Source: Axinella damicornis (lineage: Eukaryota > Porifera > Demospongiae > Axinellida > Axinellidae). From it: a stretch of 64,000 nt of DNA. Positions 3,479-55,815 of the stretch are shown piece after piece. The position numbers and the translations under genes were made by a program. A model generated the notes under the pieces. That model made no database searches. It had not been told where the DNA came from and was given only the letters and a program-made list of their open reading frames with translations. The DNA lies in contig OZ007518.1 in assembly GCA_963931865.1 (NCBI GenBank), positions 6,626,570 through 6,690,569 on the forward strand. Reading direction: 5' to 3'. How positions within the stretch are numbered: the stretch's first letter is position 1; the number at the start of each line of letters is the position of its first letter.

Positions 3479-3540
3479 TAGTCTATCGAGCTAGACCAAT
3501 TCTCTCGGAAGCAAGAGAATTGGTCTAGCTCGATAGACTA
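3479..3540. mobile_element. Foldback hairpin, 62 bp, perfect 27-bp arms
   Basis: Arms 3479-3505 and 3514-3540 are exact reverse complements around an 8-base loop (CGGAAGCA). The ends are TAGTCTATCG/CGATAGACTA. Flanks 3470-3478 and 3541-3549 are the identical 9-mer TGGTTAGTC, a target-site duplication. Confidence 0.85.
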
Positions 3541-3704
3541 TGGTTAGTCCAACTGAAACATTCCCTAACTGCTAGACCATCTTCTCCCTCTGGAAATGGA
3601 TGAGAATGAAGGAATTCGGTACAGCTATACAACTTCCTTTTGTGCACCACAGCTTTGATATGTTGTTCACACAACTCCTGATCATGAGCCGTCTATGAAG
3701 CATT

Positions 3705-4698
3705 ATGGCTTCATCACATCATGCAACATTGCATTCCAAGGTTGCCACTACCGGTACCACAGCAAATAGCCCTGTCAAAGCCCTTGCTTTCAAGCAGAGA
3801 GAGACTCTGAGGCAGAAAAATAAAGCAAGCAATCCTGTTCATGAAGTCCATGTAATTGACCTGACTACCACAACACTACCAGCTGCTCCGCAGCCACCAC
3901 TGTGGGTGCCCACATTGACTGTTGAAGATGATAAGGTGCTGCTAGATGGAGGATGGCTGTCTGACCGTTTAGTTAATGCAGGTCAGCGTCTGATACAGCA
4001 AGCACATTCGTGTGTGAGTGGGATGCAGAATGTTGCCATGGGCCACACCCTTGCATTTGATGTGATGCGAGGAGAGTTTGTGCAGGTGTTGCACACCGGT
4101 AAAGGGCACTGGGTTGCAATATCAACCATCGGGTGTCAAGCTGCTGAAGTTGACATATTTGACAGCATGTGTCCTGCACTCACTGGTGCCTTGCAGAGGC
4201 AGATAGCTGCCTTATTGTGTACCCAGCACAATGCCATCACAGTCAGGTACGTTGATGCCTGCTCGTCCACTCACTCTGGACACACTAACTAACCTTCCTG
4301 CTTTCTTCTACTCTTGCAGATACAGAAAGTGCCAACTACAGGATGGATCTGCTGACTGTGGTCTATTTGCCTTGGCATTTGCAGCAGTGTTGGCTGCAGG
4401 TGGACACCCCAGTGCCTACCTCTTTCACCAGCAGGCAATGAGAAACCATCTTCACCAGTGCCTCACCTTGAACAGATTTTCTCCTTTCCCTACAAGGAGA
4501 ATCGGGAGGGAGAACAGAAAGGCGGCAAGGATTAGTCAGCCTGTCCATGTGTACTGCACCTGCAGGATGCCTGCGAGTTTTGGCAACCACATGATTCAAT
4601 GTGGAAAGTGCCATAGGTGGTACCACCTGGATCTATGTGTGGTTGTCAGTGAACAAGCAACTAAAGCTAAATCCCAGTGGTTTTGTAGTGCTTGCTAG
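3705..4698 (+). CDS. Ulp1/C48-like cysteine protease with C-terminal PHD finger, two exons
   Basis: Exon 1 is 3705-4246 and exon 2 is 4320-4698. The 73-bp intron starts GTACGT and ends CTCTTGCAG; the junction restores an Arg codon (phase 2) and gives about 306 aa. Catalytic features of C48 (SUMO-protease fold) enzymes are visible: GHWVAIS (His), IFDSM (Asp), then LQDGSADCG with the Gln and nucleophile Cys. The C-terminus is a PHD-type zinc finger: CTCRMP, then C..C in IQCGKCHRWYH, ending WFCSAC. PHD fingers read histone tails; Ulp1-like domains with PHD fingers are known from transposon-encoded proteins in marine invertebrates. An integrase-like fragment lies upstream. No frame break is seen, so it may be a live domesticated gene or part of a transposon. 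Confidence 0.72.
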
Positions 4699-4796
4699 CT
4701 AAGCCCTTACCTTACTATTCACATTATGACATTTGCTATTTACTAAACATTCTATACCTGCAGCTGTTGTCTCCCCTATTCAGGCTCCCAGTTAGT

Positions 4797-4844
<48 letters not shown>
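4797..4844. repeat. Poly-G run (about 48 bases)
   Basis: Uninterrupted G tract; strong G-quadruplex potential and likely unreliable in length. Confidence 0.9.
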
Positions 4845-4845
<1 letters not shown>

Positions 4846-4947
4846 TAAGATAGTAGGCTAGCCTCTGCTAACGAAAAGTTAGTAAGCTAGTTATATAATG
4901 ATTTACTTACCTTGCTCAGCATATAGCTAGAGTCCATGTACATGTAG

Positions 4948-5135
4948 CTAGGACCAAATTTGTTGTCTTTCAAAAACGGTCCCACCTGGGACCAAAATTG
5001 ACAGGGTAGGACCAAATTTGTTGTACAAAAACAGTCTGGGGGGACCTAAATTGCCAAGCAAAAATGGTCCGGGGGACCGAAATTGACAAGCAAAAATGGT
5101 CCGGGGGACCAACTCTGACGGGGACCGATTTTGCC
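4948..5135. repeat. Minisatellite of about 35-45 bp units
   Basis: Several diverged units of the form GGACCAAAATTGACAAG followed by AAAAATGGTCCGGGG. Each unit contains GGACC and GGTCC and could fold locally. No gene. Confidence 0.7.
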
Positions 5136-5174
5136 ATGACAGGCCTTTCTTGGAAAATGGCAATGCTACAAAGG

Positions 5175-6380: not shown

Positions 6381-6639
6381 CTACAAAGGCATGTGAGAGC
6401 CCCAGACTTCTGGAAAGACGAGCTTCAAGTTATCCGCCGAGTCATCCGCCGAGTGACTTCCGGTATACTTTTCCGCGGCCGCCGACTCGAAACTTTGCTA
6501 GAACCCCGCATGAAGTGCTTCTTTTGGAGTACAGGCAGGAGGAGCATGGGGAGTAAATCGCAAAAAGCCTGCAGGCTGGATAACTGTAAGTTAAGTCTCC
6601 GTCAACTATGCTATGTATAACTACTTTCGATCACCGTTA

Positions 6640-7075
6640 GGCCACTGTTTACTGCAAACATGTTTCTGGTCACAAATTTCCCCTACAATAGTGCGGGCGG
6701 GCGGTTACCATTATTCATTATTTTAATTATAATGACATCACATCCTGACAAAGGAGCCTCACGAGCAAGGAAGCAGCGCTATAAACGCGTCTCCAGCTAG
6801 ACTAGACGTAGCCTCGTACCCAGTCCCACGCCCAGCTTTTCGCCGCTGCTTAGTACTTTACCGTACTAAGCAGCGTTAGTACTTTACCGTACTAAGCAGC
6901 GACGAAAAGCTGGGCGTGGGACTGGGTACGAGGCTAGACCAGACGCACATGCACGCTACTTTGGGATCACGTGGTCAAATAATGATGTGACGTCATCAAT
7001 AATGGCCAATTGATGCGGTTCAGTCAACAAGATGCGGGCGGGTGACCAGAAACACACTTAATGTAAACAGTGGCC
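6640..7075. mobile_element. MITE with TTA duplication (PIF/Harbinger-like), empty site known
   Basis: The 436-bp insert starts GGCCACTGTTTACTGCAAAC and ends with the inverted form (TGTAAACAGTGGCC); the inverted repeats run about 35 bp. TTA occurs at 6637-6639 and 7076-7078. Copy B has the uninterrupted site (TAA at 13999-14001, minus strand TTA). A 3-bp TTA duplication with GGCC ends fits PIF/Harbinger MITEs. It carries a foldback hairpin (6809-6936). Confidence 0.75.
6809..6936. mobile_element. Foldback hairpin, 128 bp, with doubled core
   Basis: The arms start TAGCCTCGTACCCAGTCCC and pair to the end. The core word TTAGTACTTTACCGTACTAA occurs twice in tandem. Flanks GACTAGACG (6800-6808) and GACCAGACG (6937-6945) match at 8 of 9 positions. 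Confidence 0.8.
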
Positions 7076-7518
7076 TTACATGTACACACAGCATGAAATG
7101 GCATACTGTCAGGCACATTTGAACCAAGGGCATAGACAGTAAGGGTTTCCTCTTCAGAGAACGCACAAAAAATCAGTTCCAGGGTTATAGATAGTTTCGG
7201 AACCAGACCCTTTGTGCGGGGGAGGAGGAAAGGGTCTGGGCACGTTCCTACATTCGAGTTGTCCTCACGGAATGTAATTATGCGTGGTAATTAGCAATCA
7301 ACTGCGATACCACACGTACGATCACAGTCACCTGCTCGTTGCTCCCCTCGACTTTTGTCAGACACTCGCGGGTAACGCGGTACGGCACAGCGATTTGCCA
7401 TGTCTAGTCACTGGCGACATCGAAAGCTGGAAAAATTGTTTCCTTGACGTCATTTGCAATCAACGCTTCTGATTCGTTAGGTCAACATTCCGACCTGGGG
7501 ACAACTCGAATGTAAGAT

Positions 7519-8143
7519 CAGGGTTTCATACAGGATTTTTTGCTGGGGGGAGGGGGGGGGGGGGGGGACACATGGCAACCCATGCAAGCCCCACCCCCTC
7601 CCATTCCCTCGGCACGTCATATCGTACACAGGGTTGTGACCAACTGACATGTTTTGACATGTTCAGATCTGGGTACGTATTAGGCTACCTGCCTCATTCA
7701 TGTCATCGTGTACAGTACATGTAAATTTAGTGAAGCTTGCAACATCAGAAAGAAGAGCAGTGGCGGATCTAGAAATTCGGAAAGGGGGGTTCAGTGGTGA
7801 ATGTAGTGAACAGAGGCGCAAAGTGCTGATCTGTCATCCGCGCGAAGCGCAGAAAATTTTTTTTTTTTTGGCTTACAAGTAGTCTATGTTTTTAAAGAGA
7901 AAAACCACCGTATTTGCTGTGAGATGTAGCTAGCACACTTCACTTATTCACTACTTATACTGCTGCATGTCCAACCAGTTTAATATTTAATTTATATTGT
8001 CTTCTGTTTTCTGGGGGGGGGGGGGGGGAACCTAGCCTCGTTCCCACGCGGCCTGGGAATGAGGCTAGGGGGAACCTCACCTGGGGGGGGGGGGGGAATC
8101 CCAGGGCCAACCCCCCCCCCCCCCCCCCCTGTATGAAACCCTG
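7519..8143. mobile_element. TIR element with 5-bp duplication AAGAT, empty site known
   Basis: The 625-bp insert starts CAGGGTTTCATACAG and ends with the exact inverse CTGTATGAAACCCTG. AAGAT stands at 7514-7518 and 8144-8148, and only once in copy B (13561 region, reversed). The CAGGG end recalls hAT elements, but the duplication is 5 rather than 8 bp. Inside are long G and C runs, a CAGTGGCGGATC-type word at 7759 and a 35-bp foldback at 8033. Confidence 0.72.
8033..8067. mobile_element. Foldback hairpin, 35 bp (smallest full copy)
   Basis: Arms TAGCCTCGTTCCCA and TGGGAATGAGGCTA around a CGCGGCC-like centre. Flanks 8024-8032 and 8068-8076 are both GGGGGAACC. The flank is G-rich, so this single match is weaker than others, but it follows the same 9-bp rule. 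Confidence 0.75.
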
Positions 8144-8626
8144 AAGATGGTGCCCAGACCCTTTCCTCCTCCCCTGCACGAAGGGTCTGGTTCCGAGGAC
8201 CGAGACTAGGTTATAGACAGAGACTATTTTCTACTGAGTCAGTACGATGCTGAAGGTACCAGCTGTGATCAAGCATGTACAGCTATATGACTTGCTGGCC
8301 AGATGGTGGTAGGGGCAGGGGGCTGAGGAGGGGGGAGCTCAGATGAATCTCTGGACAACAGTCCCAAGACTCACCACAAAGATTTCAAGCCTCAATCCCC
8401 TCAAAGTCATGTGCGTATGTGGGGGATTGTGGTACTGTAGTCGCTCGTATGAGAGTTGGACCTGTGCGTAAAAGTGATTATGTGAGCTGTGCTTAATAAC
8501 ACACCACCATGGTATATGTTGTGTAGTGATGGTCTGATGGGGTCAATGCCAATGCCCAAAGGTTCAGTGACTATAGTATCCAGTTGTAGTGAAATGAGTG
8601 TTTTTCATGATGAACTTCCTCTTTGA

Positions 8627-8627
<1 letters not shown>

Positions 8628-8713
<86 letters not shown>

Positions 8714-8715
8714 AC

Positions 8716-8748
<33 letters not shown>

Positions 8749-8762
8749 CACATACACACACA
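8628..8762. repeat. CA/TG microsatellite
   Basis: About 135 bp of CA dinucleotides with rare ATA, CGC and CAAC interruptions. At the same place in copy B (about 13062-13084) only some 20 bp remain. Open frames over it are artefacts. Confidence 0.95.
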
Positions 8763-8999
8763 TAGCCAAAAGGAAACCTGGCTTGTCACCACACATGCTA
8801 AAGTGTGTGAACCTTTGGGAGTCCCAGCTGTAGCCCCCTCTCCCCTCACCTCCACCAATGGAAGGAGGGAGGAAGAGGGGGGCAAGGGCCTTTTTCAACC
8901 ATAGGTGATATCACAGGTGAGGGGGAGGGGGTGTGAGGGGGAGGGAGGAGGGGGTGTGAGGGGGAGGGAGGAGTGGAGCCATGATATATGTATTGATCA

Positions 9000-10860
9000 T
9001 ATGATGACCATCAGGTGCACAACATTATTCGTGCAATGAACCAGCTCTATGAGCGTTTCCCGTAGCCAGAATTAGGTGTTGGTGTTGGTGCACTGTAGTA
9101 CTGGCTGCAGGTAGCCTCGTTCCCAGGCCTTCTCACCCCAGTGTTTGTCGCTTGCAGTAGTGCAAGCGACAAACGCTGGGGTGAGAAGCCTGGGAATGAG
9201 GCTAGGCTGCAGGTAGGTCTCACTGTTAGTGGCTGAAGCGATGGGGCTCTCCCTTGTCATGTGCGTGATGGCATGCTGTGTGAGTGTCTTTAAGATTGTT
9301 GTCTGTTATGACTGTGGCTCACGGTGGTATTGTGGCACTGCAAACAGTTTGCATCCAGGAGAGTGCATGTAATGCTGTCGTAGGACCCCTTTTATATTCA
9401 GCCACACGCTGCCACTGCCAATGGTTCTGTCTCTGTGTGTGCGTGTACTTGGACAGCTGATATTCTGTACTGTGTGTAGGGATTATTGTGTACATTAATT
9501 TTGTTTTAGTAGTGCATTGTACATTCAGCTCTGAGTTGTACATGCATGCATATAGTTCTTACGTGTCCTCTCCTCCCTCCTCTTCCCCCTCCCTCCATCT
9601 CCCCATCCTCTCCTCCCTCTTTTCACCCCTCACCGTCCGCCTCTTTCCTTTCTTCCCTCCGCCCCTCCCTCCTCTCCTCTCTCCACACCTTCCTCACCCT
9701 CCGTCTTTCCACCCACAGACTCTGGATCCTGTCCCCCCACATAGTGAATCCATTGATGTCATTGTATTGGGGGCGTGACTAACTGACCTCCTAACCATGC
9801 CCACTTGAAAGATGCTGTCTGAAGTAGACTCCTGGGTTAATCACAGTTGTGCCAAAAGGTGAATTCCCATGTACTGTAGGGTACCAATATGCAGGAGCGC
9901 ATAATGGTGGAGATGAAGAGCAAAAGAAGGAAGTAGCGTGAAACGACCACGCAATAGATTACAGTAGTGTGTTACTATTTTTAGTGCACAAGTGTATCAT
10001 TGTCTCTCCATGATGCATTGGCTGACTGCCAAAGATTGTTGGGAGACTCATTACAGGGTTCCCATCATCAGATCCTTTGGAGCTAGGTGCATTTTGCAAA
10101 GCCAGTTTTGGGTATGATCTTGGCCCTAAAACAAGGCTATGCAGACATATTAATGTGATGTACAATGATGAACTCACTCGAGGGTGTGTACGTATTATCA
10201 TTTGGTTCTGAACAGCTAGGTTATGTGATTATGGCTGTACCCCTGTGTGATCCCTCCCAGACCTAAACGTGTTGAAGGAGGGCATGGTATCAAGTGAGGG
10301 CACACCCACACCCTTTGCCATGACCAAGGAGGATGGACACAGACGGATGGAGACATGTCTGCGGAGTCCAGTATGACCCAGCAGGAGTGGAATCAGAAAC
10401 AAAGTGAGGAAGGGAGGATGGAGGGATGGTCAGGGGGGTGGGGGGAAGGATAGAGGGAGGGGCGGTGGATGGAGAGGAAGGAGGCATCAATCACTGCTGC
10501 TTGTGCTAGCACTAGGAAACTGGATGCTCTGACAGACAAGCAGTAAGACCTCATTCAGTTATACCCATGGCGGCCATACTTTTGAGTAAATATGCCCACG
10601 ACCCCTTTGAGAGTAGCCATTCAATGGGCATATTCTCTGGTACACATTTAATATGATTGTGTCATTGTGCAGGTGATGTAATTTCTTCTCCTCCTCTTCC
10701 CCATTCTCCCTACCCTCCCACTCTCACCCTGATCTCGTGCAAAGAAGATGGGAGAGCCATAGGCAACACAGCCGGTACCTCATGTAGCAACTGCAGCAGG
10801 GTGCCCTGGAACAGGAGATGCAAGATGACAGGAGCTAGTGCTACAGGTCACAAGGTACGT
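9000..10860 (+). other. Scattered exon-like fragments of an unrecognised gene
   Basis: Several short open segments sit between plausible splice signals. Around 9016-9062 a frame reads VHNIIRAMNQLYERFP. At about 9719-9778, behind a long pyrimidine tract ending CCACCCACAG, a frame reads TLDPVPPHSESIDVIVLGA then stops. At about 10349-10400 a frame reads MSAESSMTQQEWNQKQ before GTGAGG, and near 10512-10540 one reads KLDALTDK before GTAAGA. Near 10786-10858 there is a coiled-coil-like QLQQGALEQEMQDD. No consistent gene model was obtained, and a decayed gene is equally possible. Confidence 0.25.
9112..9204. mobile_element. Foldback hairpin, 93 bp
   Basis: Outer arm TAGCCTCGTTCCCAGGC, inner arm GTTTGTCGCTTGCA paired with TGCAAGCGACAAAC. 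Flanks 9103-9111 and 9205-9213 are both GGCTGCAGG, an exact 9-bp duplication. Confidence 0.88.
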
Positions 10861-11155
10861 ATGGACTGTGAGTTGGCCTGGTATAGCTAGATACTCTGCG
10901 TGATACTGTTGGTTCTTTTGTTGAGTTATTCCCTCTATGATTGTCTATACTTTGAGCTGAATACCTGCCTTTTCTTCCTCCTCCCTTCCCACCCTCTATA
11001 CCCCCCCCCCCCCCCCCCCTTACTGATCACTACCTGCACAATTCAATTAAGATGAACACTTACACCAAGACGAATATGATCACTCATTGTTGCTTGCAAG
11101 AGCGCATGATGACATCATTGTTTTCTCTCGACCTAATACATGCATGCAATGAATG

Positions 11156-11257
11156 TAGCCTCGTTCCCAGTCCCACGCCCAGCTTTTTGTCGCTTGCAGT
11201 ACGCTTTACCGTACTGCAAGCGATGAAAAGCTGGGCGTGGGACTGGGTACGAGGCTA
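11156..11257. mobile_element. Foldback hairpin, 102 bp
   Basis: Starts TAGCCTCGTTCCCAGTCCC and ends GGGACTGGGTACGAGGCTA; core GCTTGCAGTAC/GTACTGCAAGC. Flanks CAATGAATG and CCATGGATG match at 7 of 9. Confidence 0.8.
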
Positions 11258-11576
11258 CCATGGATGTATGCACAAGTTTAACTTGTCTTCTTGGAATGCA
11301 CAACATTGTAACTCATGACTTTGTATTATTGACTCAACTTCATTCAGAGAACAGAACAAAAAATTATAATCCAACATATACAAAAAGGTAGAGAGAATAT
11401 ACTTGTAAAGTGACTTGTAGAAAGTACGTCGAACTTCATCAGCTCCAATCAGCAATATATACACCTATATGGACGGAACAGCAATACAGCTATACAAGAT
11501 GTTTGAAGCTACTTTGCTGTAGTTAAATACTGTGCATAGCTATTTCTAATGGCTTATTGGCCATTTCAATACGTAT

Positions 11577-11690
11577 TACTACAGCAACCATTATACATGA
11601 CATAATTATATCGAGGGGCAACCGCTCTCCTGGGGTAGGCGTTGCAACCCCTTCACTACAGCAACCATTATACATGACATAATATAAGGG
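11577..11690. repeat. Short direct repeat
   Basis: CTACAGCAACCATTATACAT followed by GACATAAT occurs at about 11579 and 11655. Between them lies a 40-base block, GAGGGGCAACCGCTCTCCTG onwards, that recurs in diverged form at 29068-29104. Confidence 0.6.
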
Positions 11691-11699
11691 CGTGACACT

Positions 11700-12440
11700 T
11701 CCATAGACGTGCTAGTCACAGCTGCATGCGACCGGGGGCAAGAATTTATTTTGTGCTACTTGACTGCATTGCAGAAAGACTCTTGACCGTTTGACTGCAC
11801 TGTATTTCAGCCATTCACCGTTTGACCGCGTGCACCTTGATCCTATAATATGCGGAAGAATGCGTAGCGACTCCACCCCTTCCTTAGTATACAGGGTCAA
11901 AATGCCCGGTTGCAACTGTGACTACAGCGAATAAAATTATGGGAGTGTCACCCCACTTGCCTATGTGGTACATGTATAAGGCTGTTCCCACCGCCAGTAT
12001 CTGACTACTTGTTGTATGCAAATAAGGTGGGGGTAGGAAAGCCTGGGAGAGCTGGTCAAGTGCGATGACATCAGGTAGACAGACGGTACAGACACATGGG
12101 GAGTGGTGACCAACCATTACAATATCAGTATCAACCGTCTGCCTTGCTGATATCCAACCATTGGATGGACAGTATAAGAAAGGGTTTATGCTCATTTAAG
12201 TACAGTAGGGCAATGGTTTAGGTCCATAGCCAGCGCTGAATGAGCATGTGTGTCTTCTTCCTGTTGGACCAGTATCCACATCCTTTTGTTTAGACTTCAG
12301 CATCTCCAACTAGTTGGTTGTGAAGCTTGCTGCACATAGTTCACAGTAGATACCAGTCTGATATCGTATCATTAATGTTTTACACAATGCATGCAGTTCA
12401 GTTTCACGCATACTGCATACCTGGACAGCCCTCTCTGTTG
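11700..12440. other. Non-coding stretch
   Basis: No convincing exon or RNA gene was seen here; the frames present lack recognisable domains. Confidence 0.4.
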
Positions 12441-12455
12441 GTAGCCAGTACTGGC

Positions 12456-12488
12456 TAGTCTTGCGGGCCAGTCTGGCCCGCAAGACTA
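12456..12488. repeat. Short palindrome, 33 bp
   Basis: TAGTCTTGCGGGCCAG pairs with CTGGCCCGCAAGACTA around a single base, and weaker pairing continues outward. Ends resemble the foldback family but no 9-bp duplication is visible. Confidence 0.55.
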
Positions 12489-12539
12489 GTCGGTACCCTA
12501 CCCTTGAGAGTCTGAAACTATTAATGGTAATTAATGTAC

Positions 12540-12970
12540 CTGACAGCATGCCATTTCATGCTGTGTATACGCATGACATACTCAGGTGAATCAATAATTT
12601 CCTGCCTGCAAATTATAACAGTCATCGAAAGTAGTTATACAAACATGTACATGAGGCCATAGCATGAACCAATCGGGTCATTTACATGCAACTAAAGACT
12701 AGAGTTTGACACTAATGTCACCCTCAGACAGCAGAAAGGGTGAGATTTTGGGTAGAGACAAACAACAGTGATACTCCTTGTACAAAATAGTGTTGGCACT
12801 GAGACTTCATAGCTTAGTTGACGGATCTTAACTTACAGTTATCCAGCATCCAGGGTTTTTGCACCTGTGTATATACTCCAAAAGAAGCACTTCATGCGGG
12901 GTTCTTGAGCAAAGTTTCTAGCCAGCGGCCGTGGAAAAGTATACCGAAGTCACTTGGCGGATAACTAGAA
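12540..12970. repeat. Direct-repeat partner of 13965-14211
   Basis: The words GCATGCCATTTCATGCTGTG, ATCGAAAGTAGTTATAC and the block 12795-12968 recur in the same order and strand at 13965-14211, with extra sequence in this copy. The pair brackets copy B of the inverted duplication like terminal repeats. Confidence 0.55.
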
Positions 12971-14211
12971 GCTGGTGAGGGGAGAGGGGGCTACAGCTGG
13001 GACTCCCAAAGGTTCACACACTTTAGCATGTGTGGTGACAAGCCAGGTTTCCTTTTGGCTATGTGTGTGTATGTGTGTGTGCGAGTCAAAGAGAAAGTTC
13101 ATCATGATGTAAAACACTCATTTCACTACAACTGATACTATAGTCACTGAACCTTGGGCATAGGCATTGACCCCATCAGACCATCACTACACATCATATA
13201 CCATGGTGGTGTGTTATTATTAAGCACAGCTCACATAATCACTTTTACGCACAGGTCCAACTCTCATACGAGCGACTACAGTACCACACTCCCCCACATA
13301 CGCACGACTTTGAGGCTTGAAATCTTTGTGGTGAGTCTTGGGACTGTTGTCCAGAGATTCATCTGAGCTCCCCCCTCCTCAGCCCCCGGCCCCTACCACC
13401 ATCTGGCCAGCATATCATATAGCTGTACATGCTTGATCACAGCTGGTACCTTCAGCATCGTACTGACTCAGTAGAAAATAGTCTCTGTCTATAACCTAGT
13501 CTCGGTCCTCGGAACCAGACCCTTCGTGCAGGGGAGGAGGATAGGGTCTGGGCACCATCTTACATTCGAGTTGTCCCCAGGTCGGAATGTTGACCTAAAG
13601 AATCAGAATCGTTGATTGCAAATGATGTCAGGTAAACGATTTTCTCCAGGCTTTCGATGTCGCCAGTGACTAGACATGGCGAATCGTTGTGCCGTACCGC
13701 GTTACCCGCGAGTGTCTGACAAAAGTCAAGGAGAGCAACGAGCAGGTGACTGTGATCGTACGTGTGGTATCGCAGTTGATCGCTAATTACCACGCATAAT
13801 TACATTCCGTGAGGACAACTCGAATGTAGGAATGTGCCCAGACCCTTTCCTCCTCCCCCGCACAAAGGGTCTGGTTCCGACACTATCTACAACCCTGGAA
13901 CTGATTTTTTGTGCGTTCTCTGAAGAGGAAACCATTACTGTCTATGCCCTTGGTTCAAATGTGTCTGACAGTATGCCATTTCATGCTGTGTGTACATGTA
14001 ACGGTGATCGAAAGTAGTTATACATAGCATAGTTGACGGAGACTTAACTTACAGTTATCCAGCCTGCAGGCTTTTTGCGATTTACTCCCCATGCTCCTCC
14101 TGCCTGTACTCCAAAAGAAGCACTTCATGCGGGGTTCTAGCAAAGTTTCGAGTCGGCGGCCGCGGAAAAGTATACCGGGCGGATGACTCGGCGGATAACT
14201 TGAAGCTGGTA
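12970..14211. repeat. Inverted duplication, copy B
   Basis: Reverse complement of segments of 6445-8862. This copy lacks the elements 6640-7075 and 7519-8143 and so preserves both empty sites. It includes the foldback-family element 13497-13885. Confidence 0.8.
13497..13885. mobile_element. Foldback-family TIR element, 389 bp
   Basis: Starts TAGTCTCGGTCCTCGGAACC and ends GGTTCCGACACTA; inverted repeats are about 85-90 bp. Flanks TCTATAACC (13488-13496) and TCTACAACC (13886-13894) match at 8 of 9. It is the uninterrupted sister of 7192-8208. Confidence 0.75.
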
Positions 14212-24180: not shown

Positions 24181-24431
24181 ATAATAAATCACCACCCTGA
24201 TCTTACTATATACCACTCTTGCATGCACAAATAGGTATCGTGGAGCTGCTTGCAATAATGTCAGCTGACAAAGTGACCTTGATCTATGTTGTAACAGATC
24301 AAAATCACAACCCCAGATCGATGGTGGGAATGACTGAGATGCATTGCTATGCCCCTCCCCCCACCCTCTTACTAGGATACGTATGCACACTGAGAACAAT
24401 TCAGTGCTTCAAATTCATGGAAGTGCAACAC

Positions 24432-24479
24432 TAGCCTCGTTCCCAGGCCATCTCGGGCCTGCAGCTGGGAACAAGGCTA
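24432..24479. mobile_element. Foldback hairpin, 48 bp
   Basis: TAGCCTCGTTCCCAGG to CTGGGAACAAGGCTA. Flanks 24423-24431 and 24480-24488 are both GTGCAACAC, an exact 9-bp duplication. Confidence 0.88.
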
Positions 24480-24640
24480 GTGCAACACCACACACAGTGG
24501 ACAACATTTTGGTTCCAGTAACACACACTATTCACATTGGTCAGCACCCCCTGAGTCCACTATTCAGTGTGCATTTTAGCAAATATCCAGAAGAAGAAAT
24601 TAAAACTACGAGTGTAATCAACAATGATGCTGAATTTCAC

Positions 24641-32115: not shown

Positions 32116-32124
32116 GGTCAGCTG

Positions 32125-32174
32125 TAGCCTCGTACCCAGGCCCCGCCCACCGGCGGGGCCTGGGTACGAGGCTA
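32125..32174. mobile_element. Foldback hairpin, 50 bp
   Basis: TAGCCTCGTACCCAGGCCCC to GGCCTGGGTACGAGGCTA, almost fully palindromic. Flanks GGTCAGCTG and AGTGAGCTG match at 7 of 9. Confidence 0.82.
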
Positions 32175-32383
32175 AGTGAGCTGTAGCCATTGTTTACTGC
32201 TGTATGTGTGGGAGAACAAATATACTGCATAGGATTTCTTTATGTGTTCCCGGCTTCACTATCTATGCACAAAAAAAAATCAGTATTCTAACATGGCACA
32301 CACTTGGTTGGAGCAAGGCACTTTTCAAAGTGGATGTTAAACCATTGGTCCCATGGAACCTAGCTACATGGTGTGTGTGTGTG

Positions 32384-32422: not shown

Positions 32423-32530
32423 GATACCTTTAGCAGCTGGCTACGGCCTGTTGCACATTAAAAAGCACTCTCAGTCTAGGGCATCAGAGCAATTTCAAAT
32501 TTGGCAACAGAATCGAATTAGTATTTATGG

Positions 32531-32637
32531 TAGCCTCGTTCCCAGGCTTTTCATCCCGTCAGCGTTTGTCACTTGTAGTACTAACCTGCATTACTAATGT
32601 ACTGCAAGCAACAAACGCTGGCTTGGGAACGAGGCTA
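32531..32637. mobile_element. Foldback hairpin, 107 bp
   Basis: TAGCCTCGTTCCCAGGC to CTTGGGAACGAGGCTA with inner CAGCGTTTGTC/CAACAAACGCTG. Flanks TATTTATGG and TACTTATGG match at 8 of 9. Confidence 0.82.
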
Positions 32638-32904
32638 TACTTATGGTCCCTTAATCACTCAGCCAAGTAGTAGTCCAATGCAGCTGTCTCGCCCACTGAT
32701 TGTTACAGTACTCATCCCATTCAAATGCTGAAACTTTCATGGTGACCGTGGGGTAAGGCTGATTGAGTTATTATTGTATGTCGGCATACAGGTTACATAA
32801 TAATAGACACAATAACTAAAACTGTTTACAGTGCCTGCACTGCCCTGCAGACAGTGCGGCTATTGAACCAAGTGTAAGCCATCGAAGGAAGGATCGTTTC
32901 CCAG

Positions 32905-34209: not shown

Positions 34210-34339
34210 CTAAATGCATTTAGTGTCATGCTTCTTCAGTCCATGTACGTAAACAGAACTTTTGTTGAACAGAGTTCGTTGTTTGCGTGTACTGGCTGGT
34301 ATGTGCATGTGCCAATTAACTCTCTACCAGCCAGTGACG

Positions 34340-34421
34340 TAGCCTCGTTAACCTTAACCCTCCCTGCTTTTTCCGTACTGCAAGCAACGATAAGCTGGGC
34401 GTGGGACTGGGAACGAGGCTA
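34340..34421. mobile_element. Foldback hairpin, 82 bp, with empty site
   Basis: TAGCCTCGTTAACC to CTGGGAACGAGGCTA. CCAGTGACG flanks it on both sides (34331-34339, 34422-34430), and the duplicated segment after copy 3 has a single CCAGTGACG with no insert (40749-40757). Its left arm has diverged. Confidence 0.9.
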
Positions 34422-34514
34422 CCAGTGACGTGTTTCCTGTCATAGTCTCCCATAAGCTCTAGCTCTGATGTGTGTAATGCTAATGAAGTACTTGAACCTG
34501 TTATGCTGTATAGC

Positions 34515-35169: not shown

Positions 35170-36355
35170 ACCACTCCCTCTGCATGCAATTGCTCTAGTA
35201 GCAAACTCCAGGATCTTGGTTGGTAGTTGGCCTGCATCTATAGCCTATCAACTTTTTAAAAAGCATACAATTGCAAGTAGCTAACATCTGGCTCAAAGAT
35301 CAGAGTATTCTTATCCAACTACAAAATTGATGCATGCCTGAAGCTATATTAGCTCTAACTGTAGCACAAATATCTCACTTGTTCGCTCAGCTGCTCCAAT
35401 TACGCATGTATAACCTGGGCCTTCTTGCGATGTTGGCCCAGCCAACAGAGGCCACAGTCAATGCTAACAACTCTTCGCTTGATCACAGAAAGCAACTATT
35501 GCAAACAATTTATCTGCAGGAAGTATATATATATATATAGACAGAAGTTATGTACAATCACTCACTGTGGTCATGGGACAATTGAGAGGATAAACACCAC
35601 AGTCACACTTTTCATTCTCACAGCAAATTCACAGTCTCTCATTTCTGAACATGGAGCAATTGGCTATTGCTATATGCAAAGTGTGTAGTATGATACTCAT
35701 AGATGAAGCACTAGCTATAATTATTGCAATCATTATACTACATAGAGAAGCACTAGGTCTTGGATTTAGATGGTAAACTCAGTATTTCAACAGCACGTTG
35801 ACTGTCTTCAGCAACTCTCCATCTATGGCCAAGATCTATATATAGTGTTTCTATAGTGTTTCTATCCTCTATTATATACTGTAACTTGACCCTATAAGAT
35901 TTAGTGGACTAAAACAAAGCCATCAAGGTACCTAGCTATGCTGGCCACCCTTCCCATGACAGAGATGAAGAGACGACCCTAAATGAGAGTACGTATTTTA
36001 GTTAGTCTAAATTGTGGTGGACATCACGGATAGGATTGAGATGTAGCTAGATACAAAATTGTGCTCAGACGTCTTGCACGGTATAGTAGCTATCATAAAC
36101 TGTCATGCAGAAATGGCATGTTGCATTGAAGTCCGGAGAGTACCTTAGCTACAGGCTTTTTGTTTCACACTGTGTTTGTAGCTAGTAGCTAACTCATTTC
36201 ATTTAGCTATGTTCCAGTGCCTTACCAGGAGTAAACATTGATGGATGCAGGCAGGATGTGGGCGCATGGGCACATGCCCATCCCAGCCTGGCTTTCAATT
36301 CAAGGCCAGGCATTCAACTGCAATGCTGAAACTTATCTTTGCCCCCACTTGTACT
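35170..36355. repeat. Tandem-duplicated 3' flank of receptor copy 2
   Basis: Non-coding; matches 42780-44010 behind copy 3 (for example GACCCTATAAGATTTAGTGG and GTCTTGCACGGT). Provides the empty site (36244-36252) for the 43-bp foldback. Confidence 0.7.
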
Positions 36356-36360: not shown

Positions 36361-36409
36361 TAGCCTCGTTCCCAAGCTGGGGAGGAGCCTGGGATCCGGA
36401 ACGAGGCTA
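36361..36409. mobile_element. Foldback hairpin, 49 bp
   Basis: TAGCCTCGTTCCCAAGC to GGAACGAGGCTA; asymmetrical centre. No clear 9-bp duplication. Confidence 0.65.
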
Positions 36410-39536: not shown

Positions 39537-40628
39537 ATGGATGCTGAAGAAGTCTTCCTATCCTGCAGCAACCTGACACTGGGGCAGTACAGAGCCGTAA
39601 CCCTCACGAGGGGACTCACGGGAGCAGCAGGATGTGTTGTCTGCCTTGGTGTACTTGTGATTGTCCTACTCACCAGCAAGACAAAGGCATGGGACAATTT
39701 GACCAAGAGGATTTACTTGATGAATATCCTCTACACCTTGCTCTATTCCATTGTGGCTATAGCAGCAGTACACTACTCTCACCCTCCTTCCCAAGAAGTA
39801 GCATGGTGCGAGGCTCTGGGCTTTCTCCTGCATTACGCTGGCACGCTAGTGGTCGTTCAGTATTGTGCTCTTGCCTTTGCTATAATGTTTCAAGTTGTTG
39901 TACCAGTGTACAAATTAGTCAGGAACAGAAAAGATAACATTGGTCCCAAGGAAGCTAGACTGGGGGAAGTGCTGCTATATCTGATCCTCTTTCTTTGTCC
40001 CCTTCTGAACACCTGGGAGCCATTTCTTCCACAGCTACCATCCTATGGCAACTACGGACCAATGTGCTGGTTCCGCTTGGTGTTCACTGAAAACTGTACT
40101 GCCAACACGCTCGACTTACGCTTTCTGCAGGCAGTACCATTCGCAGTCGTGTCTTTGGCCTACTGTGTGACTTTCATGATAACACTAGTTACTTTTTGTT
40201 GTCTGTATTACAAGTTCCGCAAGCACGCTACTGGAAAAGTCCTCAGCAAAGTCATCCCGAAAGTATTTCTTCTGACAGTCATAACATTTGTGATGACGGG
40301 GTGGTTCACATTGTCATCATTTCCCTCCAAAAGTCGCAGTGATATTCGCTCCTTCTCCACTTGGCTGGAAAACGTAACCGTCACACTAGCTGCTACCATT
40401 GGAGTATTAATAGCTGTTGGAGTTTACATATACTTCCCAATGCGCTTGTGTGTGGGCTGCAGGAGAGCTTCACGTCCAGCAGCAAGAGGTTTGCAAAACC
40501 CCACTGGAAAGCCAACTGTTCCTCATTCAGAGGTGGACCACCGCAACTTACCTAGTAACACAGACTGGTGGAACCCCTCCCACGAACCAACTGAGTGTAG
40601 TCGGTTGATTGAGACTGAGAATGACTAG
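39537..40628 (+). CDS. 7TM receptor copy 3, intact
   Basis: Single-exon 363-aa receptor, nearly identical to copy 2. TM segments near 25-46, 58-80, 92-122, 144-160, 196-221, 240-262, 277-300; TM3 Cys91, LLHY 97-100, outer-loop CW 177-178, NCT glycosylation site at 186-188. Differences from copy 2 are mostly conservative; the tail has DWWNPSHEPTECS in place of the VTVTECS form. Same one-module tail ending IETEND. Its promoter region and 3' flank are duplicated from copy 2, so the pair arose by a segmental duplication of several kilobases. Confidence 0.85.
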   Translation: MDAEEVFLSCSNLTLGQYRAVTLTRGLTGAAGCVVCLGVLVIVLLTSKTKAWDNLTKRIYLMNILYTLLYSIVAIAAVHYSHPPSQEVAWCEALGFLLHYAGTLVVVQYCALAFAIMFQVVVPVYKLVRNRKDNIGPKEARLGEVLLYLILFLCPLLNTWEPFLPQLPSYGNYGPMCWFRLVFTENCTANTLDLRFLQAVPFAVVSLAYCVTFMITLVTFCCLYYKFRKHATGKVLSKVIPKVFLLTVITFVMTGWFTLSSFPSKSRSDIRSFSTWLENVTVTLAATIGVLIAVGVYIYFPMRLCVGCRRASRPAARGLQNPTGKPTVPHSEVDHRNLPSNTDWWNPSHEPTECSRLIETEND

Positions 40629-40995
40629 CTAAATGCATTTAGTGTCATGCTTCTTCAGTGCATGTACGTAACAGAACTTTTGTTGAACAGAGTTCGTTGT
40701 TTGCATGTACCGGCTGGTATGTGCATGTGCCAATTAACTCTCTACCAGCCAGTGACGTGTTTCCTGTCATAGTCTCCCATAAGCTCTAGCTCTGATTTGT
40801 GTAATGCTAATGAAGTACCTGAACCTGTTACATTGTAGAAACTTTGCAAGGTTGCTGTTGGAGCCATGGGCAATTAACAGTGAAGTGGGGTTCCTCTCGC
40901 ATATACGTAACTTCAGGAACTGGCCGTGCTAGTGAGAGGTAGCTAGCTAGCTCACTGCTAAATGCTAGCTAGCTACCAGTATAGAGATAACAAGT

Positions 40996-41037
40996 TAGTC
41001 TCGTACCCAGACCACGTGTGGTCTGGGCACGAGACTA
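40996..41037. mobile_element. Foldback hairpin, 42 bp
   Basis: TAGTCTCGTACCCAGACC to GGTCTGGGCACGAGACTA, near-perfect palindrome. Flanks ATAACAAGT and ATCACAAGT match at 8 of 9. Its ends match the 1206-bp element at 5175-6380. Confidence 0.82.
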
Positions 41038-41049
41038 ATCACAAGTCTT

Positions 41050-42779: not shown

Positions 42780-44030
42780 TGTTACTATACCACTCCCTCT
42801 GCATGCAATTGCTCTAGTAGCAAACTCCAGGATCTTGGCCTGCATTTATAGCCTATATATCAACTTAAAATTGCAAGTAGCTAACATCTGCCTCACAGAT
42901 CAGAGTACGTACTCTTATCCAACTACATATTGGATATGGATATGAGTAAATCTAAAATAATAGATGCATGCCAGAAGCTATGTAGCACAAATATCTCACT
43001 TGTTTGCTCAGCTGCTCTGATTACACGAGGATAACATTAACCTGGGCCTTCTGCGATGTTGGCCCAGCCAACTGAGGCCGCAGTCAATGTTAACAACTCT
43101 TCGCTCACAGAAAGCAAACAATTTATCTGCAGAGTGTCAGAAGTTATATATGTACATCATGAACACCACTGTGGTCATGGGACAATTGAGAGGCCGGATA
43201 AACACCACAGGCACACTTTTCATATATCATTCTCACAGCATATTCACAGAGTCTCATTTCTGAACATTGAGCAATGGCTATTATTATAATAGCTATAAAT
43301 ACACCAAGTGTGTGATATTCATAGTATACTGTTCATAGATCGATGGGGCACTATAATTATTATAGGAGCTAGCTTATCAATCAGTGATATTAGTCATATA
43401 CTAGAAGCACCAGGTCTTGGATTTAGATGGTAAGTGGCATGCAAGCTCAGTATTTCAACAGCACGTTGACTGTCTTCCGACACTCCCCATCTATGCATGG
43501 CCAAGAACTATAGTGTTTCTATTGTCTGTATGTACGGTAACTTGACCCTCAAGATTTAGTGGACTAAAACGAGGACATCAAGGTATATACCTAGCTACTA
43601 GCACTGCTGGTCACCCTTCCCTTGACAGAGACAGTGATAAGATTAGTTAGTCTAAATCGTAGCAGACATCACGGATAGGATTGAGATGTAGCTAGATATA
43701 AAATTGTGCTCAGACGTCTTGCACGGTGTAGTAGCTATGATAAACTGTCATGCAGAAATGGCATGTTGCATTGAAATCCGGAGAGTAACTAGCTACTACA
43801 TCCTTACAGGCTTTTGTTTGTAGTAGCTAACTCATTTCGTGCAGCAATAAATGATTCCAATGCCTTACCAGGAGTAAACATTGACTATAGATGCAGGCTA
43901 GCCTCGTTCCCAGGCCGTTAAATGGCCTGGGAACGAGGCTAGATGCAGGCAGGATGTGGTCGCATGGGCATATTCCCAGCCTGGCTTCCAAGGCCAGGCA
44001 TTCACCCACTCGGCTGCAATGCTGATCAGT
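42780..44030. repeat. Tandem-duplicated 3' flank of receptor copy 3
   Basis: Non-coding counterpart of 35170-36355, with an inserted 43-bp foldback at 43899. Confidence 0.7.
43899..43941. mobile_element. Foldback hairpin, 43 bp, with empty site
   Basis: TAGCCTCGTTCCCAGGCC to GGCCTGGGAACGAGGCTA around GTTAAAT. GATGCAGGC flanks it on both sides (43890-43898, 43942-43950), and the sister segment has one copy with no insert (36244-36252). Confidence 0.93.
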
Positions 44031-46989: not shown

Positions 46990-48600
46990 TTGTAGCCAGA
47001 GATCCTGCAGTACATATACCAATCACGCAAAATGTAGTACCTACTGTGCAATAGTTGCAGGGGACAATCAAATCTTATAATAATAGAAAATCGTTAAATC
47101 AGGTGCACATGATTCCATTTGGGAATAACTGCCAGATGGATGCAGTTTATAGTTGATAAGTGAGTGCAATTAATGCTTGTTTTGACAACAGATCAGTAGA
47201 TATCATTATCGCTGTGAGAATTTTCCAGTAGGCATCATATAATTGCTTATCTGGCCAAAACCATTTTCTCATTTAGCTTGGGATATGAATCAATTACTGG
47301 CATCTTTTTGACTGATTGATGCCTTCACATTAGAGTTTATAAGTTCAGTGAACTAAACAAGGTCAAGGTTCTTGGGTAGCTATCAGTCGGAAGCCAGTCT
47401 GTTTGAAACTTTCACGATTTTTTTGCTTGGCTAAAACACCATTTTTCAGCTTGTGCCAAATGGTTTCTAATGTAGTATGTAATCATAACTGATACTGTTG
47501 TATTCAGTTGTCGATTACAGGCAATTACAACAGTTGCATGATTACATAACACCACTACTGTTACACAGGAAGTGAAGTACTATGGATTAAAAAAAAAATG
47601 CAGACATGTGCAACACATTGAGTAAGCACCACTATAAAGTGAGGACGTCAGAACTGTACGTGATGCATGGTGAACTAGATATGCCAAATTGGAATTACAG
47701 CCAACGTTAATGTAACATTAATTGTAGGATTTTGAATGATGCTAAAAACGTTTTTAGTCTCGGTCCCAGACCCAAACCAACCCCAGCTGGGGTTGGTTTG
47801 GGTCTGGGACCGAGACTAAAAACCATAAATTATAGCAGGAATTGTAACATTCTGGAAGTTGACATTTAGGTGACATCTTTGGTGCTGTTAATAGGAGATG
47901 GCATACTGGTATGGACTTACCCGGGTTGTTTTGCATGAGACATTGAGTGACAATTAAAAGCGTTATACTGGATTGCAAGAGCATGTATATACGGGTGCAA
48001 ATCGAAGTTGCAGTACAACTGCACTTGCTTCGTTATCTGAGTTGAAACTGAGGAAAAATGAAGTAACTGTATTATAATTATGACATTGTAGTGGAGCTTG
48101 CATACAGTCTGTAGCTACAAACCTTCATGATGTTTGCAGCTTTCCGTTTTGTATAAGATCTAAGCAATCAGCTGGTACCTGCTGGTACCTGATACAGAGT
48201 CATATTTATTTATTTTAATTTTAACGATTGCTTGTAATCTGAGCTCCAAGCTGGTTTCAGTATATACACTGGAGTGCAGCAAAAATAACAAAGGACTTGG
48301 AAATTTACTTAGGCAACAATAGATCATTAATGATACTGAAGTTCACACCTAACAAGGTTCTTTGATGTCACTGCTAGGAATCTTATCGTGTGAACTGCAG
48401 TAACAAGGACAAATTGTAGCTGAAATACAATTGTTGCGATACCTCATGTGTTTTGCATTTGCCCGTGCATGGCTGCTCTCACAAGCTAGCCGAATGGGCA
48501 TTTTCTAGTATAGGAGCATGGTATCAACAATTGCAATTGTGGTGAGAGTGCAGTACATAATTATGTATAGTGCTGCATGGAACCCATCTAATAGGTACTT
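46990..48600. other. Non-coding intergenic DNA
   Basis: Spacer between copies 4 and 5. It contains a perfect 64-bp palindrome (47755-47818) and, at 48125-48175, a diverged arm of the palindrome best preserved at 53315-53426. No gene seen. Confidence 0.5.
47755..47818. mobile_element. Foldback hairpin, 64 bp, perfect palindrome
   Basis: TAGTCTCGGTCCCAGACCC pairs base for base to GGGTCTGGGACCGAGACTA with no loop (centre CAGCTG). The ends match the 389-bp element at 13497-13885. No 9-bp duplication could be recognised. Confidence 0.8.
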
Positions 48601-52020: not shown

Positions 52021-52024
52021 ATTA

Positions 52025-53025: not shown

Positions 53026-53314
53026 GACTCTACTGAAGCGAATCGACAATGACTAGTCTGAAGCTATATTTGCTTGCATCAACAGATTGAAAATGCAGCT
53101 GTATTCAAGAACAAGAACACATGCACATAGAGGATATACTATCTATGATCTACCCCAGAGTCATCTTACGCAGACTGCCAGCTTAGGCTACAGCTACATG
53201 CTGTAAAATCACAACTGTCATGTACTAGTTACTGAAGTAACTGTTATGTACTAGCTAGTGTGCAGTAGGTATCAAAGTTTACATATAAAGTCTGTTTAGA
53301 AGCATTCTGGTGGA

Positions 53315-53426
53315 CTTTCATGATGTTCACAGCTTTCTGTTATGCACGGTCTAAGCAATGATCTGCTACCTGTTCCAGTTGATTGCTTAGACCTTACATA
53401 ACAGAAAGCTGTGGACATCATGAAAG
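53315..53426. repeat. Palindrome with 45-bp arms between receptor copies
   Basis: 53315-53359 (CTTTCATGATGTTCACAGCT onward) pairs with 53382-53426 with few mismatches around a 22-base loop. Related single arms occur at 48125-48175 and 51700-51760, all in receptor spacers. No duplication of flanks recognised. Confidence 0.7.
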
Positions 53427-53915
53427 TTTATACTGGCTGTATGGAATGCTCCACCGTGCACACGTCTATAGTCACATGCACTAGTTGCAACTCAGATAAT
53501 GAAACAAGTACATGTATCATTAAAACAACAAATTTCATTTATCAAAATTATATCTGCAACTGACACAACATACCAACTGCATTAAAGCCATGCATGCAGC
53601 TGTACAGGAGGTTAGTGTGCATTGGTGTCCAGCTGTGCTGCAAATTTGGTCCTATTTCCATGCTCTTGCAATCCACTGATGTTTGTCACTCAAAATCTCA
53701 TGCAAAACGAATCAGATAAATGCAGTTTGCCAGTTGCTAGCTGTAAATACTATAATGTCAGCACTCAAGAATTAATGTCAACTTCCAGAATGTTAAGAGC
53801 TACCACCAAAATGTCACATCATGATTATGTACATCATTCTTTCAGCATGATTCAAAATCCTACAGTAAACGTTAAATTGTTCATACAAATGCACATGCAG
53901 TGGTTGTACCAATTA

Positions 53916-55070
53916 TTATATGTCTGTAGTGACTGGTTCATGGGAAATGCTGCGCATTGTGTAAGTATGATACTTGTGGTGGTCCACCTCTGGGTGATGA
54001 ATAGAGATTAGTGGAATAGTTTCTGCAGTGACTGTAGTGACCGGTGAGTGGAGATTGGTGTAGGTCGTTTGGCTACACCGAGTGTTGTGATTGGCCACCT
54101 GCGGGGGACGAATAACCTGGTGTTCATTCTGTTCTCCTTCCCGATGTAAAGCTCTGTTGCAGCGCAGACAACATAGATGTGTTGGGAAGTGTACATAAAC
54201 TCCTACAACTACTAGCATTGCAATAGCACCTGCTAGTGCGCCTGTTACACTCCCTAGCCAAGTGGAGAAAGAGCCGATATGACTTTTAGATGGGATAGCT
54301 GACAGTATGTACAACAGCATCATCATGAACGTTAGAACAGTCACAAGTGCTATCGTCGGGATGACTGTGATGATGCGACTTCCTATGCGACACAGAGCAA
54401 GTGACACTGTGAAAGTCATTACACTGCATCCAAAACACAGAACTGCAAAAGGGATCGTTATCACATAGAGTTCATCAGATTTGTTGGTAGTGCAGTTGTC
54501 AGCTAACTCCAAGCGGAACCAGCACAATGGTCCATAGTTGCCATAGGATGGTAGCTGTGGAAGAAATGGCTCCCAGGTGTTCAGAAGGGGACAAAGAAAC
54601 AGGATCAGGAATAGTAATACTTCCCGCCAAAGTTTTGCTTTCTTAGGACCGTGTATGTTAATATGTTTCTTCTTCCTGACTGCTTCCAGGTACACTGGTG
54701 CAGTGACCTGAAACACTGCAGAGAATGCGAGAGCACAGTAATGGACAATCAATAGTGTGCCAGTGTAATGCAGGAGAAAGCCCAGAGCCTCACACCATGC
54801 TGATTCCTGGGAAGGAGGGTGTGAGTAGTTCACTGCTGCTGTAGCCATAATGGAATAGAGCAAGGTGTAGAGGACAGTTGCCAAGTAAACCCTCTTGGGA
54901 AAATTCTCCCATGCCTGTTACTTGGTAACGTGAATGAGCACAACGATCCCAAGTATACCGAAGGAGATGACACAGCCTGCTGCTCCCGCAAGTCCCCTTG
55001 TGAGAACTACAGCTCTGTACTGCCCCAGTGTCAGGTTGCTGCAGGACAGGAACACTTCTTCAGCATCCAT
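53916..55070 (-). pseudogene. 7TM receptor copy 7, one nonsense codon
   Basis: Start ATG at 55068-55070 and an open frame to the tail at 53916, except TAA at 54918-54920 in the first inner loop, where copy 6 has AAA (HVTKKQ). Nine residues of inner loop 3 (MYCKFRAKT region) are also deleted in frame. TM2-TM7, SAWCEAL, GPLCWFRLE and the two-module tail are otherwise intact. A recent or polymorphic null allele fits best; readthrough or a downstream start would lose TM1. Confidence 0.8.
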
Positions 55071-55089
55071 GACTCTACTGAAGTGAATT

Positions 55090-55735
55090 GAGAATGACTA
55101 GTCTGAAGCTATGTTTGCTTGCATATATGAAAATGCAGCTGTATTCAAGAACAAGAACACTATATAATAAAGTATCTATGATCTAGCTACCCCAAAGCCG
55201 TCTTAAGCGGACTGCCAGCTTATGTATAGACTATACTGCATGCATGCTGTAAAAACAGAACTGTCATTTAAATGCAGTTGCTATGTTATGTCAGCTGCAA
55301 ATATGATGAACTGTAGATATTATGATAACAAAATTGTTGTTGTAGCATACTTGTTTTGCTATCTGGGTTGAAACTGAAGTAACTGTGAGCTAGAATAGAG
55401 CTAGGTTTGTACATAAGGTATTAGGCTTTCCTTTTTGTAAGGTCTAAACAGTCCTGCAGATGGCTCTTCCCCAACATCATCTAGATCTCCTCTAGTTCAA
55501 AGGACCCCACCCTAAAATGGCATAGGGACATCCCTTGGCAATATTACCTTGTGGTGCACACATCTGAAACTAGGTAAAATCATCACATGCATACATTTTT
55601 AGAACTACGGAGTAGCAAACATATAAACTGTCACAGCACAAAATGTATTGTGATCACATTACCACTTTAATATCCATGATTGCACTCACGTGAGAAATGT
55701 GAGTTATGACAAATGCTTACTCTAGGAGATATCAA
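55090..55735. other. Non-coding spacer
   Basis: Nothing recognised besides similarity to the flank of copy 6 near 53030-53110. Confidence 0.4.
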
Positions 55736-55737
55736 AG

Positions 55738-55815
55738 TAGCCTCATTCCCAGGCTCCTCCCCAGCTTTTTGTCGCATACTGTAGCTACATAAAAAGGAGC
55801 CTGGGAACGAGACTA
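55738..55815. mobile_element. Foldback hairpin, 78 bp
   Basis: TAGCCTCATTCCCAGGCTCC to GGAGCCTGGGAACGAGACTA; inner CCCCAGCTTTTTGTCGC is one-sided. ATATCAAAG flanks both sides (55729-55737, 55816-55824), an exact 9-bp duplication. Confidence 0.88.

Follow-up and report, generated by a model that had tools for sequence, protein, structure and literature searches.

The genome of the sponge Axinella damicornis harbours a large family of short, nearly palindromic DNA elements, with ends of the form TAGYCTCG...CGAGRCTA and 9-bp target duplications, which are quite probably non-autonomous DNA transposons of the Mutator-like type (Mutator-like elements, MULEs, of foldback structure), partly shrunk by internal deletion. 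The family was noticed in a stretch of 64,000 nucleotides (GenBank assembly GCA_963931865.1, contig OZ007518.1, positions 6,626,570 to 6,690,569 of the forward strand), hereafter called the window, by a sequence-only reading that had given coordinates and flank identities for 12 elements, all of which proved exact, with seven duplications identical at 9/9 bases, three at 8/9 and two at 7/9. The same reading had spoken of about twenty near-palindromes; the family stands but the number is generous, since the count comes to 15 short elements, 12 of which have a duplication while those at 12456, 36361 and 47755 lack one, plus one 389-bp relative, when five end pairs with poor arms (at most 10/14 positions matching) are excluded. 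On folding, the paired fraction reaches 0.63-0.95 in 14 short window elements, and inverted repeats thus fill most of the element, a foldback feature which the forms of 389-616 bp do not share.

The duplications were assessed against cross-paired flanks in an assembly of 226 Mb of eukaryotic origin, comprising 120 contigs, of which C1 to C14 are large (10.8-22.6 Mb) and six others are shorter than 24 kb; C-numbers designate contigs and L-numbers genome stretches read outside the window. In the main sample, made of the window and one 10-kb locus from each of the 14 large contigs, at positions fixed in advance, the flanks matched at 7/9 or more positions in 19 of 29 candidate pairs (11 exactly), as compared to 4 of 812 cross-paired flanks. 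With looser ends, over 286,268 bases, such matches occurred in 27 of 63 candidates (16 exact) versus 10 of 3906 cross-pairings, one of the 10 being a 9-bp spacer common to two adjacent elements of L002. Exact direct repeats in this larger set were concentrated at 9 bp (16/63), with a single case at 10 bp (1/63) and none at 5-8 or 11-13 bp (0/63), so that the excess over controls sought at length 9 is indeed there. Depending on the source, a duplication was present in 13 of 20 window candidates and in 11 of 30 from the 14 fixed loci. The looser set includes L002-L004 for their matching ends and other loci for their MULEs; L001, which overlaps L002, was dropped, 65 rows were merged to 63, and overlapping candidates were decided in favour of those with a duplication. 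Because duplication-bearing candidates were favoured in this way, the 19/29 figure is the less biased one. No convincing target consensus emerged among 24 duplications. In the 27 duplication-bearing elements, mismatches affect 19/324 arm positions and 14/243 duplication positions, both figures being limited by the selection of the elements; the arms thus diverge like the duplications, and there is no sign of a correction keeping them identical.

Tandem duplications occurring in the window supply paralogues for an empty-site comparison, and a paralogue spanning the junction is present for two of the 15 window elements tested, the 82-bp and the 43-bp ones. For the first, the blocks 32920-34340 and 39324-40758 are 91.9% identical, and the joined flanks match at 187/193 positions with CCAGTGACG present once. 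For the second, the joined flanks agree at 119/150 aligned positions with an older paralogue near 36244-36252, in which GATGCAGGC is again present once. Together with the cross-paired controls, the two empty sites uphold the earlier claim of separate insertions accompanied by 9-bp duplications. One element outside the window, L015 2706-2802, has no direct duplication and lies between flanks that are near inverted repeats (gtcagtttg/tttgctgac).

Exact ends TAGYCTCG...CGAGRCTA occur genome-wide at 3496 places for a total length of 16-46 bp and at 3619 places for 47-77 bp, with 3 places in the reversed control for each range, i.e., 7115 places against 6; these counts rest on the end pattern and include tandem arrays and some overlapping pairings. 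The proposed genome-wide palindrome search thus finds the family spread across the genome. Viral contigs gave 0 matches to one pattern.

The earlier picture of the short elements is incomplete in that they do not stand alone: relatives of 389-616 bp share their ends, and some copies stand in tandem arrays. Long forms that share these ends and are flanked by exact 9-bp duplications measure 601 bp (L008), 613 bp (L012) and 616 bp (L014); the duplications of the long forms are CAGTAGTTC, CCCCCTCCT and CCCTCCTCC at 9/9, plus one at 8/9 in the 389-bp relative of the window (13497-13885), the right end of which is two mismatches off and the inverted repeats of which extend over about 80 bp at 88% identity. 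The L008 and L012 elements are 95.8% identical and represent one family. Among the 40 candidates scored per family, query included, the copies other than the query are 87-95% identical in the 616-bp family (249 candidates), 94-98% in the 613-bp family (650 candidates) and 94-98% in the 389-bp family (725 candidates). The longest frame of the long forms reaches 136 codons, and the family displays the usual attributes of miniature inverted-repeat transposable elements (MITEs), namely many copies, non-coding sequence, inverted ends and duplications. Self-comparison of the four long forms revealed inverted repeats in their ends and none of the tandem subrepeats that make up the terminal repeats of FB-like foldback elements. 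Several genome copies of the 389-bp family occur as inverted pairs 2-97 kb apart, which suggests that part of this family may ride in larger inverted-repeat structures. In the window, region 7076-14001 consists of two inverted arms around about 4.4 kb, each with a 389-bp relative; the arms are 94-96% identical, the right one measures about 940 bp, and their outer ends read TTACATGTACACACAGC. An insert at about 7519-8143, which is bounded by CAGGGTTTCATACAG...CTGTATGAAACCCTG and may have duplicated AAGAT, contains the 35-bp element 8033-8067 and is absent from the other arm.

The anatomy of the long forms suggests how the short ones could have arisen. Each end of the 613-bp family consists of TAGCCTCGGTC, followed by the palindrome CCAGGCTCTCTCCTC...GAGGAGAGAGCCTGG and then by the interior; folded as DNA, the right end reaches a z of -5.85, with 0/200 dinucleotide shuffles as good. 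The left end of the 616-bp family contains, by sequence, an exact 11-bp stem CCAGACCCTTC/GAAGGGTCTGG. The short elements resemble two ends placed around one subterminal palindrome. In the proposed mechanism, a MULE transposase encoded elsewhere would cut at the TAG/CTA ends and insert the element into target cuts staggered by 9 bp. In a long form, the terminal repeat would consist of a short end of about 11-18 bp and, behind it, the subterminal palindrome CCAGRCY...RGYCTGG. As the two palindromes of one such element repeat each other in inverted as well as in direct orientation, a deletion between them could leave an end-palindrome-end structure, or solo hairpin. One prediction of this step was borne out, since the 64-bp solo form expected from the 613-bp family is found, as a sequence match alone, at 14 places, five of them exact, with 0 in the reversed control. 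Further loss around the centre would yield forms of 30-50 bp. Some of these trimmed forms, above all the 35-bp one, might still move in trans, as two ends of about 17 bp would suffice; this is the least certain step.

The 35-bp form deserves special consideration. Element 8033-8067 differs at a single position from a form found in 49 exact copies distributed over C1-C13, of which three belong to arrays. When two mismatches are allowed, this form has at most 472 strand matches (control 0); the figure is a ceiling, since a variant intermediate between the form and its reverse complement may be counted twice, once per strand. Among the one-mismatch variants listed (to C4), 30 of 51 are CpG transitions, as opposed to 8 of 105 possible single changes, and the copies therefore give the impression of a single uniform form that is being eroded through loss of CpG; the observed/expected ratio of CpG in the 14 fixed loci is 0.46. 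Such uniformity would favour spread at 35 bp, while being compatible with recurrent deletion too. In a tentative proposal, to which we give slightly less than an even chance, a 35-bp palindrome whose ends measure only about 17 bp each would be a mobile DNA transposon in its own right and would have reached dozens or hundreds of loci. If true, since a duplex of 35 bp could hardly be bent into the loop that usually pairs the ends, a transposase dimer would have to recognise the whole palindrome as a single site, with cuts on either side of it, or else work on the hairpin in extruded form.

The strongest rival, a serious contender though we stop short of preferring it, holds that the short forms never move, each having inserted as a longer element and been reduced in place by recurrent deletions, either at the centre of the palindrome or from one short direct repeat to another. 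Among the 50 short elements listed on C1 the centres mostly differ, the 35-bp form can be derived by sequence from a 44-bp form through a single TGGGA-to-TGGGA deletion, and L009 658-709 has, by eye, kept a long left arm and only about 13 bp of the right one. A decayed duplication (7-8/9) goes, if anything, with a shorter element than an exact one does (short elements, median 43 versus 62 bp, n = 10 and 13, P = 0.34), a trend in the direction predicted by shrinking in place, which is not significant and tells mildly against mobility at 35 bp. However, the 35-bp form is commoner than the 44-bp form, the sole presumed parent counted, which has 7 exact copies and 72 strand matches within two mismatches.

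As regards the mobiliser, the sequence-only reading had stated that no transposase is present. This is correct for MULEs in the window, which contains none of the 51 matches to the MULE domain (PF10551) found genome-wide, and incorrect for the genome. All 51 matches exceed the curated cut-off, five of them only together with neighbours in frame, and 33 lie in open frames of at least 400 codons; by contrast, the Merlin transposase domain (PF12762) gave 0 matches genome-wide, and the proposed Mutator-like fit is strengthened accordingly. Six kinds of MULE, grouped by frame length and score, were sampled (L020; L021/L025/L027; L022; L023; L028; L029). The 5.5-kb MULE with a 967-codon frame has three copies (L021/L024, L025/L026 and L027) that are 99.4-99.9% identical. 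It was a promising candidate on account of a TAGCC end upstream of its frame and of its C3 copy, which stands between TAGCC...GGCTA ends with the duplication CTGGCGCTC. Comparison of the copies led to its rejection, its own ends being a repeat of about 95 bp that starts near CCGGGCGTTTTT, with the TAG elements as passengers inside; the C3 copy is itself nested in a TAG element, and in all three copies the studied family is represented by a 92-bp perfect palindrome with the duplication GTAATAGGT. The L022 MULE was likewise rejected as it has its own 89-bp ends, and L020, L023, L028 and L029 gave no matching ends. In L014 (307-999), a fragment of the MULE domain (frame 450-839, minus strand) is enclosed by inverted repeats of 95 bp, with which no TAGYCTCG ends are paired. 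Cysteine-rich C-terminal ends in or next to the MULE frames of L022 (5602-6495) and L029 (2092-4647) are, by eye, presumably PHD finger-like.

Several results weigh against reading the family as MULE derivatives shortened by deletion. No TAGYCTCG/CGAGRCTA pair owned by a MULE occurs in the six kinds sampled, over 6-7.5 kb, at most 13.5 kb, of surrounding sequence, so that, of the full-length relative with the same ends and a transposase that had been called for, the long relatives were found and a transposase-coding one was not. A MULE's own ends were not found in four of the six kinds, and tblastx between the long forms and the MULE loci read, L014 left out, returned 0 rows. A superfamily is not identified by duplication length alone, and 36 of the 63 loose candidates have no duplication. 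The hairpin is weak in the 389-bp family (z of -2.72 at the right end and -1.27 at the left) and does not rise above shuffles in the 616-bp family (z of -0.14 and -0.34). Finally, a 64-bp query with one extra G in its G run gave 0 matches in a mismatch search that does not tolerate an indel.

It is in view of the lack of such ends in the MULEs sampled that one might assign the family to the transposase of another superfamily, recognised or not and perhaps extinct, the MULE fit being by duplication length only. Superfamilies besides MULE and Merlin are set aside by their duplication lengths, and Merlin (IS1595/Merlin) makes duplications of 8-9 bp. This explanation is unlikely, considering that MULEs are numerous and the Merlin domain gave no match, that two of the long families are 94-98% identical, which suggests recent activity, and that 9-bp duplications of Mutator/foldback elements appear in the consulted part of the published description of Tm1 (PMC3169594). 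Membership in the MULE superfamily is likely, and not proven because a transposase gene with the family's ends was not found.

Five tandem arrays were encountered, built from 49-bp elements at a period of 58 bp (C1, 1338285-1338681), from 35-bp elements at a period of 44 bp (C2, 1378301-1378379) and from 44-bp elements at a period of 53 bp (C12, 1589840-1589989), with two further arrays (C11, 379853 and C1, 19099191) having spacers of 10 and 14. A 43-bp array in L004 was rejected as an instance of the element + 9 arrangement, its unit having no 9-bp spacer. These arrays notwithstanding, it is scarcely credible that the palindromes are, instead of transposons, constant components of a tandem or satellite repeat, since the elements read sit singly in different flanks, most listed places with exact ends lie far apart, the two empty sites contradict it, and in three of the five arrays the period exceeds the element by 9 bp, as would result if an element had later been amplified together with one copy of its duplication.

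The arms of the elements also contain paired motifs. In the left arms, CAGG accompanies TAGC and CAGA accompanies TAGT, both in 36 of the 50 listed C1 elements (25:1 versus 0:10, P = 4e-8) and in 16 of the 27 duplication-bearing elements (11:1 versus 0:4, P = 0.003); arms without such a motif are omitted from these counts, including four (of 27) and two (of 50) with TAGC and CAGT. The first letter is the same in both arms of 50/50 listed and 26/27 duplication-bearing elements. Given this pairing, the terminal AGYCT and the inner AGRCY are, at the sequence level, matched inverted motifs, which suggests either that the transposase binds repeated motifs of two specificities or, more simply, that there are two subfamilies.

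Table 1. Elements of the family and empty sites in the window
Feature	Position	Part with flanks	Strand	9-bp duplication	Remarks
Palindromic element	3479-3540, 62 bp	3470..3549		TGGTTAGTC, 9/9	Divergent ends TAGTCTATC
Element with long hairpin arms	6809-6936, 128 bp	6800..6945		GACTAGACG/GACCAGACG, 8/9	
Asymmetric 35-bp element	8033-8067	8024..8076	Minus	GGGGGAACC, 9/9	
Element	9112-9204, 93 bp	9103..9213		GGCTGCAGG, 9/9	
Hairpin element	11156-11257, 102 bp	11147..11266		7/9	
Related 33-bp palindrome	12456..12488			None (2/9)	Begins TAGTCTTGCGGGCC
389-bp relative	13497-13885	13488..13894	Plus	TCTATAACC/TCTACAACC, 8/9	Left end TAGTCTCG
Element	24432-24479, 48 bp	24423..24488		GTGCAACAC, 9/9	
Element	32125-32174, 50 bp	32116..32183		7/9	
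Element	32531-32637, 107 bp	32522..32646		8/9	
Element	34340-34421, 82 bp	34331..34430		CCAGTGACG, 9/9	Filled site, first empty-site pair
Empty site	36244..36252			Single GATGCAGGC	No element; second pair, partner of 43899-43941
Related 49-bp element	36361..36409			None (1/9)	
Empty site	40749..40757			Single CCAGTGACG	No element; first pair, partner of 34340-34421
Element	40996-41037, 42 bp	40987..41046		8/9	
Element	43899-43941, 43 bp	43890..43950		GATGCAGGC, 9/9	Filled site, second empty-site pair
64-bp element	47755..47818			None (4/9)	Arm ends match 14/14
Element with unequal arms	55738-55815, 78 bp	55729..55824		ATATCAAAG, 9/9	

Apart from the family, positions 25773-64000 of the window contain related open reading frames in tandem, several of them of 300-400 codons, with no Pfam match at E 0.001; one has 124 homologues in public sequences, up to 95% identical. 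Elsewhere in the genome, C4:14811759-14813060 gives a COX1-family match with 486 codons free of stops, besides the split mitochondrial cox1 on C120, which we take to consist of three pieces with a LAGLIDADG-like frame, TGA being read as W; these features point to a probable demosponge.

With respect to known systems, the family works like Mutator/foldback MITEs, and FB elements of Drosophila are of kilobase scale. Judging from the portions of the descriptions consulted, the nearest described system is Tm1 of root-knot nematodes, a Mutator/foldback family, followed by Tetris of Drosophila. Tm1 makes mostly 9-bp duplications (8-10 bp in 45 of 53 complete elements) and similarly combines foldback-type composite terminal inverted repeats, MITE-like members and the lack of a clear target consensus; it differs, according to the same excerpts (PMC3169594), in having a putative transposase-coding member, whereas no coding member was found for the sponge family, in its terminal repeats made of 13-15-bp tandem units with other end motifs, and in its size, with elements of 1080 and 2593 bp as opposed to sponge elements of down to 30-35 bp. 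Tetris, in the sections of its description available (PMC4079207), shares the foldback structure, the duplications of 8-10 bp, the lack of a known autonomous copy and the seeding of tandem arrays, which derive there from repeats inside the terminal repeats and in the sponge from whole elements. The repetitive hairpin elements of sponge mitochondria are likewise short dispersed hairpins, but mitochondrial, the likeness being one of description in the excerpts of the source (PMC2800124); neither TAGYCTCG nor CGAGRCTA occurs in the one mitochondrial stretch searched (L019). Four end strings have no occurrence in the open-access PubMed Central (PMC) literature, and among the matches listed there none describes a TAGYCTCG family or a transposon this short.

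Like MITEs in general, the sponge elements are short and numerous, with inverted repeats and duplications, and the forms of 389-616 bp have an ordinary MITE size. They differ in that 13 of the 27 duplication-bearing elements are at most 50 bp long, and the earlier remark that elements of 35-50 bp fall below the usual size agrees with the 50-800 bp generally given for MITEs in the consulted text of the MITE Tracker paper, where the default floor is 50 nt (PMC6171319). Since 12 of the 27 are shorter than 50 bp, nearly half of them would escape a MITE finder set to a 50-nt floor, and such elements may be under-reported elsewhere. The proposed route would lead from an ordinary MITE to a solo hairpin and then to a trimmed palindrome, somewhat like the formation of solo long terminal repeats, and both the lower size bound of a DNA transposon and the way in which a transposase pairs its ends become testable.

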